From positions 1-64,000 of the forward strand of contig JAGCGO010000066.1 in NCBI GenBank assembly GCA_017649565.1: a stretch of DNA of 64,000 nt, given 5' to 3'. The position numbers and the translations under genes are program-made. Positions 7,194 through 53,057 of this stretch are shown here, piece by piece (within the stretch, counting starts at the first letter, position 1; every line of letters starts with the position of its first letter). This DNA comes from Fibrobacter sp. Its GTDB lineage: Bacteria; Fibrobacterota; Fibrobacteria; Fibrobacterales; Fibrobacteraceae. The notes under the pieces were generated by a model that saw only the letters and a list, made by a program, of their open reading frames with translations, had not been told where the DNA came from and ran no database searches.

Positions 7194-7326
7194 AGTGGTT
7201 AGGGGTTAGGATCTAGAGGCTAGGATCTAGGGGGGGGATGTTAGACGAGAGACGAGAGACGAGAGGGGAGAGGGGAGAGGGGAGAGATAGTGGTTAGTAA
7301 ACAGTAGGAGGTAGGAAGTAGGAAGA
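7194..7326. repeat. Heptanucleotide-phase repeat array 1
   Basis: Nineteen consecutive 7-bp words in one register fill this stretch between the ABC-class ATPase gene and the IS element. They include AGACGAG three times, AGGGGAG three times, AGGATCT twice, and single words such as AGTGGTT, AGGGGTT, AGGAGGT and AGGAAGT. Most begin with AG. No ORF or RNA is evident. From 7327 to 7378 the sequence is non-coding and ends in AAAAAAGGAGGTCCCCTCC, part of a palindrome broken by the IS. Confidence 0.85.
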
Positions 7327-10222: not shown

Positions 10223-10264
10223 GGTGATTAGTAGGAAGTTAGAAGTAGGAAGTAGGCAGTGGTT
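10223..10264. repeat. Heptanucleotide-phase array 2, overlapping a gene start
   Basis: Six 7-bp words in register, among them AGTAGGA twice, AGTTAGA, AGTAGGC and AGTGGTT. The array begins three bases after the LpoB-like gene stop and its last word contains the GTG start codon of the next gene. Confidence 0.75.
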
Positions 10265-29889: not shown

Positions 29890-30047
29890 AGACGAGAGGC
29901 TAGAGATGAGAGGCTAGAGGCTAGATATACGAAACTAGGTGCTTTAGCACCTTAGTTGTGTTATCCCATGAGGTTCGAGGTTCCAGGCTCGGTAGTCGAG
30001 ACTCCAGGTTCGAGGCTCGGGATGCGGGGGCCGGGGTCAGGATTACG
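29890..30047. repeat. Heptanucleotide-phase array 3 with palindrome
   Basis: Two blocks of 7-bp words fill the gap upstream of rng to the stop of the next gene. Block one (29890-29966) has AGACGAG, AGGCTAG three times and AGATGAG, then a module ATATACG AAACTAG GTGCTTT AGCACCT ... GTTATCC holding the palindrome GGTGCTTTAGCACC. Block two (29971-30047) has AGGTTCG and AGGCTCG twice each, AGGTTCC and AGACTCC. From 29749 to 29889 I see only the rng upstream region. Confidence 0.8.
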
Positions 30048-38132: not shown

Positions 38133-38591
38133 ATGATGAAGGAACAACTCTTCAATTTGATTGGAAAACACCGATTCAATATTTCCATCTATACGAAGGA
38201 ATTGTTTGAAAGGCGTTGCCAGGAAGAAATTATCCGCAGCGACGAGGACAAGACCTCGTTCGTGTACCTCGAGTTCAACTTTGAACAGATCGCCCGCAAG
38301 CTCGGGAACGAAGACGACAACAGCAAGTTCTGGGAAATATTCCTGGAAGCCCTGGCCAAGAACAACAGGGGATGCGATATCATCGGATTTCTCGAGAACG
38401 AGGCCGGGTTGGGCATGTTGCTCCTCGATTCCAAGGTGGAAGGATGGATGCGAGTCAAGGGCCGTATCGAGCAGACCGCCAGCATAAACAACTTCCCCCA
38501 CGTGTCAAGCATCCTCTCGACCCTCGTGACTCCCATTGTCTATCCCTCCTGCATACAGGACTTGCAGCAAAAGGCGGCAGCGAATCCATGA
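38133..38591 (+). CDS. Unknown soluble protein, 152 residues
   Basis: A 152-residue soluble alpha/beta protein (MMKEQLFNLIGKHRFNISIY at the start) that I cannot place in a family. It has an acidic first half and no signal peptide or TM helix. Its stop overlaps the start of the glycosyltransferase gene (ATGA), so the two are translationally coupled and may act in the same process. Starts 28 bases from the divergent DUF4954 gene. Confidence 0.7.
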   Translation: MMKEQLFNLIGKHRFNISIYTKELFERRCQEEIIRSDEDKTSFVYLEFNFEQIARKLGNEDDNSKFWEIFLEALAKNNRGCDIIGFLENEAGLGMLLLDSKVEGWMRVKGRIEQTASINNFPHVSSILSTLVTPIVYPSCIQDLQQKAAANP

Positions 38592-39841
38592 AAGTTCTGG
38601 TCATCGGTTCCGTCTACCCCCGGTTCCAGGAAGACGCCGAAGTCCCCTGGCTCCGCACGTCCGTCGCACACCTCAAGCAGGCCGGCGTCGAAATCCAGGT
38701 ACTCGCCCCGGCATACAAGGGACTGCGAGACCACGAAATAGACGGCACCCCCGTACACCGTTTCCGCTACGCGCCGGCAAGCTGGGAAATCCTCACGCAC
38801 GAAGAAGGCGCCCCCTCCAAGATGGCAAGCAAGCCCTGGCTGCAGCTTCTCGCCATCCCCTACATCATAAACGGCTTTTTCAGGTGCCTTTCTATCTGCC
38901 GCAAGTGGAAGCCCGACGTAATCCATGCGCACTGGCCTTTCCCGCACGCCTATATCGCGCTCGGCGCATCGAAGCTGCTGCGCATCCCGCTGGTGCTGAA
39001 CTTCCACGGGGCCGAACTGTTGCTCATCCGCAAGAAGAAATGGGTGAAGCCGCTGCTGAAATTCGCCATTGGACAGGCACGCGCCGTGTTCGCGAACTCA
39101 AGCTTTACCGCAAGCAAGATCAAGGCCATCCGCAACGTAGACGTGGAATGGAGCCCGTATGGGACTACTTTAGACGAGAGACGAGAGACGAGAGACGAGA
39201 GAGAAGGCTCGAGGCTCGAGGCTCGAGGCACGGGAAACGAGAGAGAAGGCTCGGGGCTTGTTCCGCATCCGGTGGACGGCAAGTTCAAGATCCTCTTCGT
39301 AGGTAGGCACATCGAGCGCAAGGGAATCTGCTACCTGATCGAATCTGCCAAGATGCTGCCCGCCGACAAGTTCGAGATCCGTATCGTCGGCGTGGGCGAC
39401 CTTACCGAAAAGCTCAAGCAGCAGGCCCTGCAGTACCCGCACGTCGTGTTCACGGGCAAGCTTTCGCCGGAAGACCTCGCGCATGAATACCGCACCGCCA
39501 ACGTATTTGTCTTGCCCGCCATTGTCGACCACAAGGGAGACACCGAAGGCCTTGGCGTCGTGCTCATCGAGGCGATGGAACTCGGGCTGCCGGTTGTCGC
39601 AAGCAACGTGGGCGGAATCCCCGACGTCGTCGTCGACGGCGATTCCGGCATTCTCGTTCCCGAGAAGGACCCCGAGGCACTGGCCAACGCGTTCAAGCGC
39701 CTCGCCAGCGACCGCGCGCTCGTCATGAGCCTGCTCGAAGGCGCCCGCAAGCGCATTGCCGAATGCTTTACGTGGAACGGCATCATCAAGCGCCAGATAG
39801 AAGTTTATAACAAGGTCATCAACAGGCGGAAAGGCTCATAG
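38588..39841 (+). CDS. GT4-family glycosyltransferase with repeat-coded insertion
   Basis: A 417-residue GT-B glycosyltransferase of family 4, expected to transfer sugar from a nucleotide-sugar to a lipid-linked or surface glycan. The N-terminal domain opens with MKVLVIGSVYPRFQEDAEVPWLRTSVAHLKQAG and holds HAHWPFPHAYIA; the C-terminal domain has KILFVGRHIERKGICYLIESAK and the donor-binding EGLGVVLIEAMELGLPVVASNVGGIPDVV. Residues about 196-223 (DERRETRDEREGSRLEARG ...) are encoded by twelve 7-bp repeat words and sit in the linker between the domains, where relatives have only a short loop. The frame is intact, so the protein is probably functional. Confidence 0.85.
   Translation: MKVLVIGSVYPRFQEDAEVPWLRTSVAHLKQAGVEIQVLAPAYKGLRDHEIDGTPVHRFRYAPASWEILTHEEGAPSKMASKPWLQLLAIPYIINGFFRCLSICRKWKPDVIHAHWPFPHAYIALGASKLLRIPLVLNFHGAELLLIRKKKWVKPLLKFAIGQARAVFANSSFTASKIKAIRNVDVEWSPYGTTLDERRETRDEREGSRLEARGTGNEREGSGLVPHPVDGKFKILFVGRHIERKGICYLIESAKMLPADKFEIRIVGVGDLTEKLKQQALQYPHVVFTGKLSPEDLAHEYRTANVFVLPAIVDHKGDTEGLGVVLIEAMELGLPVVASNVGGIPDVVVDGDSGILVPEKDPEALANAFKRLASDRALVMSLLEGARKRIAECFTWNGIIKRQIEVYNKVINRRKGS
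39172..39255. repeat. Heptanucleotide-phase array 6, inside a glycosyltransferase gene
   Basis: Twelve 7-bp words in one register: AGACGAG four times, AGAGAAG twice, GCTCGAG three times, GCACGGG, AAACGAG and GCTCGGG. The total of 84 bp is a multiple of 3, so the reading frame is kept. Confidence 0.85.
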
Positions 39842-39877
39842 CCGATGCCGAGTCCCCATAAAGAAAGGAGAGCCATC

Positions 39878-41335
39878 ATGTTATCGCGTTCCAGACTCTT
39901 ATCCATTATGCTTGCTGCCTGGGCAGCCTTCACGTTCTCCTTTACGGCCTGTTCCGGCGAAGACGGTGCAGACGGCGTTGCCGGCAAGGACGCCGAGGAA
40001 GTCAATGTCGACTCTCTCGCCAAGGCCATACGCACGAAGGTCACCAAGGATACCAAGAAAGTCGATGTCGACTCCCTCGCCGATGCCATACGCTCGGAAG
40101 TCACGAAGACCCTTTGGGACAGCCTCTATGCCGAGCCCTACGTGGACACGATCTACAATATCCTCTTCGACAATACCTACGCCGACAAGTGGATGGACTC
40201 CGTACGCGAAGCACTGGTCGACAGCCTGAAGGATGCCGACTACGACTCGCTCTACAAGGTACTCTACGACAGCATCTACAACGATATCTATATGCAGCAC
40301 GCCATCCGGACGCTCGACGCTGCCGTACTGCTTTCCAAGGACGATATCTACGGTGCTTTCGCGAACCAGTACTCGCTCATGTACAAGGACTTCAAGGGCT
40401 CGAAAGGGGAACTCCTTCCGGTACCGGTCGGCATAACGGCACGCAACACCTGCGACAAAAAGAGCAACGTTCCCTGCCGCTGGAAAAAGGTCACCCTAAA
40501 AGCCTGGATAGATGGCGCCACCGACACGAGCGTAACAACGGAATTCGTGAACCCCGACACCTCCATAACCCTCGGCGCCTCGCTGAAGTTCGACAACGAC
40601 TACCTGCTCAACCTGACCGCTCCCCAGCAGGAACAGATCCAGATACGCGCCTACGCTCTCGAGAACGACCGCGAAATCCTCTTCTTCTCGGAATCCAGGC
40701 CCACGAGAGTCCATCCCATGCAAATTAACGGCGGCGAATACAAGGGCGTCGAGAATCGCCACTGGTGGTACGGAGTCTGGGTCACGCCGAACATGGACTC
40801 CATTTCTACCATCCTGGACGAAGTCGCCAAGAAGCTCCCCGACGGAACGCTCAAGGTCTACCAGCAATACGGTGATGACGAATCGATAGCCGCAAGCTCG
40901 TCACGTGTGGTAGAAGCGGTATTCGATGTCCTGAAAAAACGCAACATCAAGTATATCGAAAACGACGGTGCCGGTTCTGTCGGCCAGAAGATAAACTACC
41001 CCATCGAAGTACTGCGTTCCAAGCAGGCTGTCTGCAACGAGTTCTCGCTGCTCTTCGCATCGGTTCTTGAAGCCATCGGTTTCCAGACCGCGCTCATTAT
41101 CATCCCCGACCACATGTTTGTCGGCTGGTATCCTGAAAGGGACGGCAAATACCTTGACGTCGTCGAAACGACGCTGCTCAACAGTAAGGAATCTACTTTC
41201 CAGCTCGCGAACGAGGCTGCCATAGAAACATTTACGCAAGAAGTCACGGCCGAGGCCCAACAGTCCGGAGACGCCGAAGTCATCTTGATAGACGATGTCC
41301 GCAACTTCGGCATCATGCCTAACGACATCCCGTAA
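39878..41335 (+). CDS. Lipoprotein with transglutaminase-like domain
   Basis: A 485-residue lipoprotein, lipobox in FTFSFTAC (Cys about 25), then a short collagen-like GEDGADGVAGKD stretch. Residues about 40-145 repeat a helical pattern around DSL (VDVDSLADAIRSEVTK, YVDTIYNILF, DYDSLYKVLYDSIY), probably a stalk. A beta domain follows and then a transglutaminase-like core (about 350-440) with Cys in KQAVCNEFSLLFASVLEAIGF, His in DHMFVGWY and Asp in GKYLDVVET, giving the full Cys-His-Asp triad. These enzymes cleave or crosslink peptides; the target is unknown. AAAGGAG seven bases before ATG 39878 decides the start over an ATG 33 bases upstream. Confidence 0.8.
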   Translation: MLSRSRLLSIMLAAWAAFTFSFTACSGEDGADGVAGKDAEEVNVDSLAKAIRTKVTKDTKKVDVDSLADAIRSEVTKTLWDSLYAEPYVDTIYNILFDNTYADKWMDSVREALVDSLKDADYDSLYKVLYDSIYNDIYMQHAIRTLDAAVLLSKDDIYGAFANQYSLMYKDFKGSKGELLPVPVGITARNTCDKKSNVPCRWKKVTLKAWIDGATDTSVTTEFVNPDTSITLGASLKFDNDYLLNLTAPQQEQIQIRAYALENDREILFFSESRPTRVHPMQINGGEYKGVENRHWWYGVWVTPNMDSISTILDEVAKKLPDGTLKVYQQYGDDESIAASSSRVVEAVFDVLKKRNIKYIENDGAGSVGQKINYPIEVLRSKQAVCNEFSLLFASVLEAIGFQTALIIIPDHMFVGWYPERDGKYLDVVETTLLNSKESTFQLANEAAIETFTQEVTAEAQQSGDAEVILIDDVRNFGIMPNDIP

Positions 41336-48417: not shown

Positions 48418-49413
48418 TTAGCGGTTCTCCAAAAGTTCCTGGATACGAGTCAAGTCGTCCATGGAATAGTAACTGATGACGATGGTGCCCTTGGACTGGT
48501 CGGACGCACTCGGGTTCAGCTCGACCTTGGTTCCGAAATAGCCTTCGAGCTTGGACTCGAAATTCTTGAGGTCGGCACTCAGTTCCGGCTTCGGCTTCTT
48601 TACGGCCGGACTTGTCGAGGTTGTTGAAGCGTCGGCCCCTTCGGCAAGCTCAGGGTCCTTGCCAAGGTCGGTGAGCTTGTCGAACCGCTCGTCTCTCGTC
48701 TGATAAATATCCTCCCCGCGGATGACGGCTTCGATCTGTCGGACGTTCAGTCCTTCGTCGATAATCCTCTTGGCGAGGCTTTCGGGATCTTCGACCTTGT
48801 CGCTGCAGAGGGCACGTGCGGCGCCGCTGTTCAGCTTGCCTTCTACTATCCAAGTGAGCACTTGTTCCGGAAGCTTCAGAAGGCGGAGCGAGTTCGTGAT
48901 GGCGGAGCGGGACTTACCAACAATCTTGGCCAAATCTTCGTGGGTATAGCCGTGATTATCGATCAACTGTTGATAAGATCTTGAAACTTCGACCGGGTTC
49001 AGGTCGACGCGCTGGATGTTCTCGATGAGGGCCCATTCGGCCATCGTCTTGTCGTCGAGGTTTTCGTAGACCTGCGCCTTGATGACCGAAAGACCGGCGA
49101 GCTTTGTCGCGCGGGTACGGCGTTCACCGCTGATGATCTGGTAACGGTCGCCCACCTTGCGGACGACGATCGGCTGGATCAGGCCGTGCTGTTCGATGGT
49201 CTCGGCGAGTTCCACGAGCTCGTCGTCGCTAAAAAATTTGCGCGGCTGGAACGGGTTCGGGTCGATGAGGTTGACATCGATTTCGACAATCCTGTCCTTT
49301 TCGTTTTCCTGGGCCGGCGCGGAAGCTTCAGTGGGTATGATGCCACTGTTCAAGGAATGGTCCTTGAGAATGTCGGAGAGGCCGCGGCCGAGAGCGAGAG
49401 ACTTTTTTCCCAT
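48418..49413 (-). CDS. parB: Chromosome partitioning protein ParB
   Basis: A 331-residue ParB, the CTP-dependent clamp that loads at parS. The N-terminal start MGKKSLALGRGLSDIL, the CTP-binding ISGERRTRATKLAG, ENIQRVDLNPVE and the helix-turn-helix YTHEDLAKIVGKSRSAITNSLRLLKLPE are all present, and the C-terminal dimer domain begins near residue 275. The linker carries two small repeat-derived pieces: TRDERF (about 237-242, two heptad words) and DPELAEG (about 253-260, a REP-like palindrome). AAGGA precedes the ATG. Its parS sites lie 1.6-8 kb upstream. Confidence 0.95.
   Translation of the reverse strand: MGKKSLALGRGLSDILKDHSLNSGIIPTEASAPAQENEKDRIVEIDVNLIDPNPFQPRKFFSDDELVELAETIEQHGLIQPIVVRKVGDRYQIISGERRTRATKLAGLSVIKAQVYENLDDKTMAEWALIENIQRVDLNPVEVSRSYQQLIDNHGYTHEDLAKIVGKSRSAITNSLRLLKLPEQVLTWIVEGKLNSGAARALCSDKVEDPESLAKRIIDEGLNVRQIEAVIRGEDIYQTRDERFDKLTDLGKDPELAEGADASTTSTSPAVKKPKPELSADLKNFESKLEGYFGTKVELNPSASDQSKGTIVISYYSMDDLTRIQELLENR
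48637..48655. repeat. REP-like palindrome inside parB
   Basis: CCCTTCGGCAAGCTCAGGG, sharing the core TTCGGCAAGCTCAG with 5909-5933 in the ABC-class ATPase gene; in frame in the ParB linker. Confidence 0.6.
48688..48701. repeat. Two heptad words inside parB
   Basis: CTCGTCT CTCGTCT, the reverse complement of AGACGAG twice, in the linker of ParB about 30 bp from the REP-like palindrome. Two units alone could be chance; the neighbourhood makes a repeat origin plausible. Confidence 0.4.
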
Positions 49414-49477
49414 TTTTTGAAATCCTTGATTAATATATAAATTCTGTTTGCTGCGTATTTAATGCCGATGGTATAAT

Positions 49478-50263
49478 TTATTTTTCCTTGTTCAGGATTT
49501 CTTCGGCGAGTTTCATGTAGGCCTGCGAGCCGCTGCTCTGCACGTCGTACAGGATGACCGGCTTGCCGTGGGACGGGGCCTCGCTCAACTTGACGTTGCG
49601 CGGGATGACCGACTGGAACACCGTATCGGAAAGGTTCTCGCGAACTTCCTCGGCGACCTGCTTGCAGAGACTCAGGCGGGCGTCGTACATGGTGAGCAGC
49701 GTTCCCTCGATCTTGAGGTCGCCATTCAGGTTCTTCTGCACTTCGCGGATTGTCTTGAAAAGTTCGGTCATACCCTGCAGGGCGTAGTATTCGCACTGCA
49801 CCGGGATGAGCACGCTGGTGGCGGCGGTCAGCACGTTGAGCGTGAGGAGGTTCAGGCTCGGGGGCGCGTCGATGATGATGAACTCGAATGCCTGCTTGAG
49901 GATGTTGATAACTCTTTCGAGACGGCGTTCACGGCTCATGGCGTTCACGAGCTCGATTTCCATCACGGCCAGGTCCGGTCCGGACGGGATGAGCTTCAGG
50001 AAATCCAGCGGCGTGTCGAGAATGGCAGGCTTGATGGTTTCGTAGCTGAGGTTGTCGGGATTGCCGGCCAGGTTCAGGACTTCGTGGATATCTTCGTCCT
50101 GCGCCTCGTTGAAACCGAGACCCTGGGAAGCGTTGCCCTGAGGGTCCATGTCGATAAGAAGGGTCTTCTTTTCGAGAGCGGCAAAACTTGCGGCCAGGTT
50201 CACGGCCGTCGTGGTCTTGCCCACGCCGCCCTTCTGGTTACAGATCGCTATTACTTTACTCAT
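49478..50263 (-). CDS. parA: Chromosome partitioning ATPase ParA
   Basis: A 261-residue ParA/Soj ATPase that drives separation of ParB-parS complexes. Deviant Walker A is QKGGVGKTTTAVNLAA (residues 10-25), Walker A' LLIDMDPQGNASQGLG, and Walker B FIIIDAPPSLNLLTLN. It overlaps rsmG by four bases and precedes parB by 64 bases, where TTTATATATTAATC may give parB an extra promoter. Confidence 0.96.
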   Translation of the reverse strand: MSKVIAICNQKGGVGKTTTAVNLAASFAALEKKTLLIDMDPQGNASQGLGFNEAQDEDIHEVLNLAGNPDNLSYETIKPAILDTPLDFLKLIPSGPDLAVMEIELVNAMSRERRLERVINILKQAFEFIIIDAPPSLNLLTLNVLTAATSVLIPVQCEYYALQGMTELFKTIREVQKNLNGDLKIEGTLLTMYDARLSLCKQVAEEVRENLSDTVFQSVIPRNVKLSEAPSHGKPVILYDVQSSGSQAYMKLAEEILNKEK

Positions 50264-50994
50264 TCGTTACCTCGAGTGACTAAGGCGTAAACTTGTTCTT
50301 CTTGGGGTAGTGCATATTTATATATGTGTACCGCCGGGTCGTTTTCCAAGTGAACGATATTGTTGAAACTTTTTAGGGTGAGGAACGTCCCGCCCTTCTT
50401 GAGTCCGGGTTGGGCACGTTCCCAGTCGTTTTCGAAAGTCGAGAGGGCGCGGCAGCTGATAAAGTCCAGGTCCGAAAGGCCGGAGGTCTCGAAGCGCTTG
50501 CCCACGACAGTCAGGTTTTGGAGTTGGAGCTTTTCCTTGGCGTAGTTCATGAACTGCACGCGCATGTTGCGGGGCTCGACCGCATAAAACTGGATTTCGG
50601 GCATCACGATGGCGAGCGGGAAAACCGGACAACCCGCACCCGCACCCATATCAGCCCAGCGTTTAGACGAGAGACGAGAGACGAGAGACGAGAGATTGTT
50701 TGAGGGTAAACCATTATTGGACGATGATTTTTCCCTCTCGTCTTTCGTCTGTAGGACCGCAGGTCCGTTCTCTCGTCTAATATATATATAGGGTACCAAC
50801 GAGTCGGCGATGTGGCGGCTGAGGATTTTTTCGGAATCTTTCGTCGAAATCAGGTTGCCGAACTGCTTGGTCTCCACTACCAAATCGGCATACAGGTAGA
50901 GCCGTTCAGTCGTCTCCTTGGACAGCTGTACGCCTTTCTCTGACAAAAATTGACAGAATATTTCCTGTTGCCTGGTATCTTCCGATGGTCTCAT
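50260..50994 (-). CDS. rsmG: 16S rRNA methyltransferase RsmG with repeat-coded insertion
   Basis: A 244-residue RsmG (GidB), which makes m7G527 in 16S rRNA. The N-terminal part has the HIADSLVP motif and the SAM-binding motif WADMGAGAGCPVFPLAI, followed by EPRNMRVQFMNYAKEKL and DFISCRALSTF. Between the two motifs, residues about 74-110 (IYIRRENGPAVLQTKDEREK ... LSSLVSRLSSK) are encoded by a heptad repeat array in place of the usual short loop. The frame is intact; E. coli RsmG has 207 residues. A parS-type site lies seven bases before the ATG, with no Shine-Dalgarno. First gene of rsmG-parA-parB. Confidence 0.93.
   Translation of the reverse strand: MRPSEDTRQQEIFCQFLSEKGVQLSKETTERLYLYADLVVETKQFGNLISTKDSEKILSRHIADSLVPYIYIRRENGPAVLQTKDEREKSSSNNGLPSNNLSSLVSRLSSKRWADMGAGAGCPVFPLAIVMPEIQFYAVEPRNMRVQFMNYAKEKLQLQNLTVVGKRFETSGLSDLDFISCRALSTFENDWERAQPGLKKGGTFLTLKSFNNIVHLENDPAVHIYKYALPQEEQVYALVTRGNE
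50665..50776. repeat. Heptanucleotide-phase array 7, inside rsmG, with inverted ends
   Basis: Sixteen 7-bp steps in one register. The left end has AGACGAG four times; the right end has CTCTCGT, CTTTCGT and CTCTCGT, near-complementary to the left words. The perfect palindrome GGACCGCAGGTCC (50754-50766) lies near the right end. The middle is unrelated sequence but keeps the phase. Confidence 0.8.
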
Positions 50995-51000
50995 TAAGTA

Positions 51001-51016
51001 TGTTCCACGTGAAACG
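51001..51016. promoter_or_regulatory. parS: parS-type site 1
   Basis: TGTTCCACGTGAAACG, one arm change from the consensus TGTTTCACGTGAAACA. It is seven bases upstream of the rsmG start and may let ParB affect the operon. Confidence 0.85.
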
Positions 51017-51202
51017 TCTTGTGGATATCTGACGTAACGTTCCCTAATTTAGAATATCTTACTAACAAAAAGGCCGCCGGAAATCCGGCAGACCGAAAAT
51101 TTTAAAAATATTTGTGGATAATATTTTAGTAAATGTTGAGAAAATGTTGAATCTTGTGATTTATCTATCAACACCGCCGACAGCGAAAAATAGGCCCAAC
51201 TT

Positions 51203-52948: not shown

Positions 52949-52996
52949 ATTTGTTTTCCTTGCCGAAGGGACCGGGCGTCTCATTTTGTTATGAGG

Positions 52997-53057
52997 AGAC
53001 GAGAGACGAGACGAGAGACGAGAGAGGGCAATGGGGCCTCGAACCTCGAACCTCACC
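52997..53057. repeat. Heptanucleotide-phase array 8
   Basis: AGACGAG twice, a 5-base slip, AGACGAG again, AGAGGGC, AATGGGG, then CCTCGAA twice and CCTCACC. It runs into the stop codon of the following leftward gene at 53053. Confidence 0.7.

Follow-up and report, generated by a model that had tools for sequence, protein, structure and literature searches.

A tandem heptad array in the interdomain linker of a Fibrobacter glycosyltransferase and its relation to dispersed repeats lying in frame within other genes

How does a gene accommodate a tandem array of seven-nucleotide units, a length that is not a multiple of three, and still encode an uninterrupted enzyme? This question is raised by a GT4 glycosyltransferase gene of Fibrobacter sp. 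(GCA_017649565.1, contig JAGCGO010000066.1), contained in the 64,000-nt stretch of DNA analyzed here (positions 1-64,000 of the contig; hereafter the window), which derives from a MAG with an estimated contamination of 6.1%. The product carries the Pfam domains Glycos_transf_1 and Glyco_transf_4, which together with the structural model indicate a GT-B fold, and orthologues at E <= 1e-100 were present in 76 of 80 Fibrobacter genomes. The array comprises 84 bp, in frame, equivalent to 28 codons, and its register reads AGACGAG x4, AGAGAAG, GCTCGAG x3, GCACGGG, AAACGAG, AGAGAAG, GCTCGGG. The first-pass annotation described this region as twelve heptads in frame. As a count in register this was confirmed, the lag-7 identity being 0.73 overall and 0.61 in the final 56 bp, values that none of 20,000 mononucleotide shuffles matched; as twelve copies of one unit it does not hold, for the heptads belong to three related unit types. 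Only two perfect arrays are found in the insert (Table 1), and the remainder is degenerate yet keeps the period of seven. The encoded peptide is highly charged, in agreement with the earlier description.

The same annotation had placed the array in the linker between the two Rossmann domains, and the AlphaFold2 model (19 sequences, pTM 0.76) bore this out: the array follows the final strand of the N-domain (residues 186-188) and precedes the first strand of the C-domain (residues 232-238), and residues 196-225 showed pLDDT values below 50 and no secondary structure. The heptad-coded segment is predicted, on this basis, to be a disordered and exposed interdomain linker. RNA folding of the array revealed no hairpin (z = -0.2), unlike the palindromic elements used for comparison. 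The neighbouring gene (39845-41335), whose product starts like a lipoprotein, contains a 60-bp tandem repeat of 2.1 copies at 39985-40108, a period that is a multiple of three.

Table 1. Host genes and repeat features; positions without a prefix are those of the window.
Feature	Position	Strand	Basis
GT4 (GT-B fold) glycosyltransferase CDS of 417 aa that carries the insertion	38588-39841	+	ORF, Pfam, AlphaFold2, orthologues
Twelve heptads in register, interdomain linker, RRETRDEREGSRLEARGTGNEREGSG peptide region	39172-39255	+	register, shuffles, model
Perfect AGACGAG x4.4 sub-array, belonging to the dispersed Fibrobacter heptad family	39172-39202	+	
Perfect AGGCTCG (= GCTCGAG) x3.6 sub-array, within the stretch missing from the six-heptad alleles of sister species	39205-39229	+	
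ParB CDS, heptads and a second repeat (QTRDERFDKLTDLGKDPELAEGA) between HTH and dimerisation domains	48421-49458	-	Pfam, orthologues
AGACGAG x2 within parB, in frame	48688-48701	-	
RsmG (GidB) CDS, with a palindromic insert that ends in heptads, just ahead of the SAM-binding motif	50263-51048	-	Pfam PF02527 match in two parts, orthologues
AGACGAG x4.4, forming the first arm of the insert in RsmG	50665-50695	+	RNA fold
E1 element CGTCTGTAG-[GACCGCAGGTCC]-GTTCTCTCGTCT, hairpin with a GTAG tag, forming the second arm of the insert in RsmG	50746-50778	+	
ZnuA-like gene, AGACGAG array in His-rich loop, breaking the frame in the assembly	L172:7249-7262	-	
Topoisomerase III (TopB) gene, three repeat-derived inserts within the Topoisom_bac match, two with heptads and one with E2	L217:12886-15864	+	
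Nudix hydrolase, 147-bp heptad array directly after the Nudix box, in frame	L214:1246-1971	-	

The history of this linker was examined in 77 orthologous Fibrobacter loci, many of them from MAGs, by measuring it from SPYG to VGR. All 77 linkers were intact and in frame, with 33 different lengths ranging from 84 to 348 nt (median 129), whereas 11 loci of the family and order but outside the genus had linkers of 84-90 nt without the charged segment; we took this short form as the empty state. This result supports the earlier proposal of a derived in-frame insertion as opposed to a conserved feature of the protein. The net gain in the window is only about 69 nt (23 residues), and not the 28 residues previously stated, because the native linker was also replaced. 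Likewise, the divisibility of 12 x 7 by three, which had been put forward as a key argument, is not decisive, since all 77 alleles are multiples of three whatever they contain and many of the fillings are not heptads.

A lag-7 array was present in 23 of the 77 linkers; the other lags between 4 and 12 yielded no array. Three kinds of heptad were found (AGACGAG, AGTAGGA/AGTCGGA and GGAATTC) together with at least six unrelated elements, alone or joined: the SLPLA element, CHCEERSDEAIQ, the CHPERSE/VILSE types, RNGKFICRYD, RRESQPCLHGYDR and E2. AGTAGGA, which carries a forward stop, occurred in the linker only mixed with AGTCGGA or with its stop out of phase. The SLPLA core is itself dispersed: a strict pattern found 1-7 copies in 14 of 19 chosen genomes, and the window's genome had no match to it. 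On a tree from which the linker was excluded, parsimony required at least 12 changes for the heptads, 12 for SLPLA, 10 for the CHPE-type fillings and 50 for length class, figures that come from a quick tree with SH-aLRT support only, in which 29 of 74 forks are open, and that do not separate gain from loss. As a hot spot, the GT4 linker has repeatedly been filled with different repeat families, unrelated to one another, and the gene has remained intact.

Changes in heptad number were also evident among close relatives. The nearest heptad-bearing relatives (G051, G012 and G078) have six heptads versus twelve in the window, a difference of exactly 42 bp or 14 codons, and the six extra heptads are GCTCGAG x3, GCACGGG, AAACGAG and AGAGAAG. 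In G013, the closest relative (96% identity outside the linker), and in G060 the heptads are decayed and of different unit mixes. The alleles with six and twelve heptads are direct evidence for change by whole heptads under frame constraint, accompanied by point decay. All the heptad carriers at this locus present the repeat in the RRETRDE reading orientation.

The AGACGAG arrays make up a dispersed family that is found almost exclusively in Fibrobacter. A search of the window's genome with AGACGAG x3, allowing up to three mismatches, gave 276 overlapping matches on both strands, whereas the reversed control gave none. At two mismatches 69 of the 80 Fibrobacter genomes were positive, with 0 to 221 matches each; elsewhere in the phylum, at one mismatch, only G150 (59 matches) and G144 (1 match) were. 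In an 830-kb sample, consisting of the first 20 kb of contigs 1-53 of the window's genome plus the window, we found 36 arrays of period 7 besides N runs and none or one for each of the periods 4, 5, 6, 8, 10, 11 and 13, while periods 9, 12 and 15 gave 5-6 arrays, as expected for coding DNA. Among short periods, seven alone is clearly enriched in the genome. The sample and the GT4 linkers together show that dispersed tandem heptad arrays of several unit types are present in Fibrobacter, and many of those in the sample constitute one arm of longer elements. That AGACGAG is special because none of its six frames contains a stop became a weaker argument, since the fraction of 7-mers with this property is 0.504. 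Further heptad arrays of the AGTAGGA, AGGGGAG and GGCTAG types are located in the window at 7243-7325, which lies between ORFs, and at 10230-10260, 29890-29991 and 52996-53054.

AGACGAG-type repeats of the window's genome occur both between genes and in frame within them. Using codon scores on the array flanks, 35 arrays of the 830-kb sample were scorable, and in 10 of these the flanks were coding in the same frame with no stop through the array. Four further in-gene arrays fell below the score threshold (in rsmG, in an aminotransferase gene and two in the hem cluster of L197), where ORFs read by eye showed that the protein continues on both sides; in total, about 14 of 35 arrays are in frame inside genes and one in-gene array, that of a ZnuA-like gene, is out of frame. 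Compared with the one-in-three expectation, this excess corresponds to p of about 2e-6 for arrays (14 of 15) and about 4e-4 for host genes (9 of 10), values that are supportive but not exact, because the assignment to classes was partly visual and genes broken long ago would go unnoticed. The hosts identified by Pfam comprise GT4, ParB, RsmG, TopB, an HrpA-like helicase, CobA-HemD, a CbiX/CysG-N-like protein, a Nudix hydrolase and an aminotransferase. DERRETR strings had been predicted at unrelated sites, and they were found in ParB, TopB, HrpA, the Nudix hydrolase and others. The insertion proposed at first was correct but too narrowly drawn, since the GT4 array is one among many scattered copies. 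Two adjacent ORFs of the tetrapyrrole gene cluster at L197:1180-3806 contain five AGACGAG arrays between them, some in each orientation.

RsmG and ParB showed the same pattern as the GT4 linker. In the window the heptad arm of the RsmG insert pairs with an E1 arm (RNA fold z = -4.4). All 30 RsmG orthologues fetched, every one from Fibrobacter, contained a repeat-derived insert of 84-171 nt before WADMGAGAGCP, and the insert differed in each: 15 of the 30 carried AGACGAR heptads, the others unrelated palindromes. A TATATATATA codon run, (TA)n, directly preceded the insert in 29 of the 30. Similarly, orthologues of ParB from several species had the hinge filled by heptads, by a second dispersed repeat or by an acidic filler. 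Second, more distant copies of RsmG (contig C13) and ParB (contigs C13 and C67) are present in genome G000, as expected from the estimated contamination of this MAG.

Two longer elements were defined in the 830-kb sample. E1, with 17 copies, has the structure CGTCTGTAG-hairpin-GTTCTCTCGTCT, in which the stem varies, and bears a GTAG tag at the foot of the stem-loop, as REP elements do, also in its rsmG copy; E2 is a second element containing GGTGCTTTAGCACC. Neither E1 nor any GTAG hairpin was present at the GT4 array.

Taken together, our data establish the dispersal of the heptads, their placement inside genes, the tolerance of the linker to insertion, its repeated and independent refilling, the change by whole-heptad steps and the intact frame of every GT4 allele. 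Very probably, the GT4 array is one member of the heptad family scattered through Fibrobacter, and came to rest in a loop, exposed and disordered, in which extra length costs the enzyme little. AGACGAG-type heptads, which often cap palindromic elements, would have reached the linker as one dispersed copy, by insertion or by ectopic exchange between repeat-bearing sites, and their number would then have changed by replication slippage or perhaps by exchange. Insertion, as opposed to local amplification, is what we infer for GT4, because no pair of empty and filled sites with a target duplication was found there. Selection would act mainly as a frame filter, removing frameshifts, and the peptide itself may have little or no function. 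The earlier wording of an insertion that selection kept implies a benefit; the data point instead to tolerance and a frame filter: the fillings turn over rapidly and no peptide is conserved.

Since seven is not a multiple of three, a change in heptad number could toggle the glycosyltransferase by frameshift, as in a phase-variable contingency locus. Heptad tracts drive such switching elsewhere (the (ATCTTTC)n tracts of the hmwA promoters, PMC8262952), sister species do differ in heptad number, and the array of the ZnuA-like gene is out of frame in such a way that dropping one heptad or adding two would put the frame right, so out-of-frame states may exist. However, this frame break may be an assembly error. 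The relatives of that gene have other fillings at the His-rich loop, in frame. The perfect tract of GT4 amounts to just 4.4 units interrupted by others, which is short for a hypermutable tract, and many orthologues lack heptads altogether; because every one of the 77 alleles is in frame, phase variation of GT4 is quite unlikely. A linker with a function of its own, such as membrane or partner binding, for which the repeats provided raw material fixed by selection, would agree with the high charge of the peptide and with the constant RRETRDE orientation among GT4 carriers. We consider it unlikely all the same, given that the fillings of close relatives encode unrelated peptides (SLPLAPAS, CHCEERSDEAIQ, CHPERSE, SEFG) or none, that the segment is predicted to be disordered, and that other genes have heptads in either orientation (LVSRLSS in L197).

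The layout of E1, GTAG plus a palindrome, and its 17 copies would fit REP elements mobilised by a RAYT (Y1 tyrosine) transposase. The window's genome has a single Y1_Tnp gene, with no E1 copies beside it, whose product we take from its sequence to resemble an IS200-type TnpA, and the heptad-rich relatives G051, G018, G054 and G069 have none; for these reasons movement by a RAYT is not supported. No RAYT-like gene linked to the repeats was found, and with the GT4 array devoid of a GTAG hairpin this explanation is very improbable. That the array arose by chance or as an artefact might be suspected of a contaminated MAG, but no shuffle reproduced it, and since the independently assembled G051, G012, G078, G062 and G059 share an array at the same site this is excluded for practical purposes. 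The landing of a dispersed heptad copy in a tolerant loop therefore remains our preferred reading. A more speculative extension, which we regard as possible although rather doubtful, is that the GT4 interdomain linker, the RsmG loop after the (TA)n codon run and the ParB hinge are docking sites, repeatedly overwritten through ectopic exchange between elements sharing heptad ends, so that unrelated families would serve as interchangeable cassettes in housekeeping genes. If this were true, the genus would possess an active generator of diversity in protein linkers that works without a transposase of its own.

In the openly accessible literature searched, no description of these repeats turned up. 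Their hosts include parB, rsmG and topB, and dozens of related species record the turnover at one site; therefore, the entry and exit of short repeats in proteins becomes directly testable. Annotations of Fibrobacter genomes call for caution over linker lengths, gene calls and repeat-derived peptides.

Among known systems, the STRR arrays of filamentous cyanobacteria consist of degenerate heptanucleotide tandem units of many types and are dispersed, as are the several types of seven-base units described here. STRRs are found in non-coding regions (PMC2670836), whereas the Fibrobacter units, of other sequence and from another phylum, lie in frame in many conserved genes. The hmwA contingency loci also have a seven-base tandem unit in variable number, but theirs are promoter tracts of 13-24 identical units with a regulatory effect (PMC8262952), in contrast to the short mixed arrays of the GT4 coding linker, always in frame. 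REPs tagged with GTAG/CGTC are known inside genes, and different REPs occupy about one site of recB in two Xanthomonas species (PMC3733652, which makes no mention of Fibrobacter); E1 resembles them as a multi-copy GTAG-tagged hairpin, although in Fibrobacter there is no association with a RAYT and the heptad arrays themselves are not REPs. The Rickettsia palindromic elements (RPE; Ogata et al. 2000), as summarized in PMC1950309 and PMC3733652, are dispersed, lie in frame in housekeeping genes at tolerated surface sites, where they add 20-80 residues, and occur also in intergenic regions. The Fibrobacter repeats share with RPEs, as so summarized, the dispersal, the in-frame placement at tolerated sites of housekeeping genes and the intergenic copies. 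They differ in that the GT4 array is made of tandem heptads and is not a palindrome, the RsmG insert, which does fold, being another arrangement; in that, across the genus, a single site has repeatedly taken up repeats of several unrelated families; and in their hosts, gut Fibrobacterota versus reduced obligate intracellular bacteria. The best reading of this comparison is that dispersed repeats tolerated in an exposed linker work much like RPEs in genes and like in-gene REPs. Dispersed repeats inside genes, best known from Rickettsia and some REP-rich bacteria, are met here in a group that matters for the breakdown of fibre in the gut.
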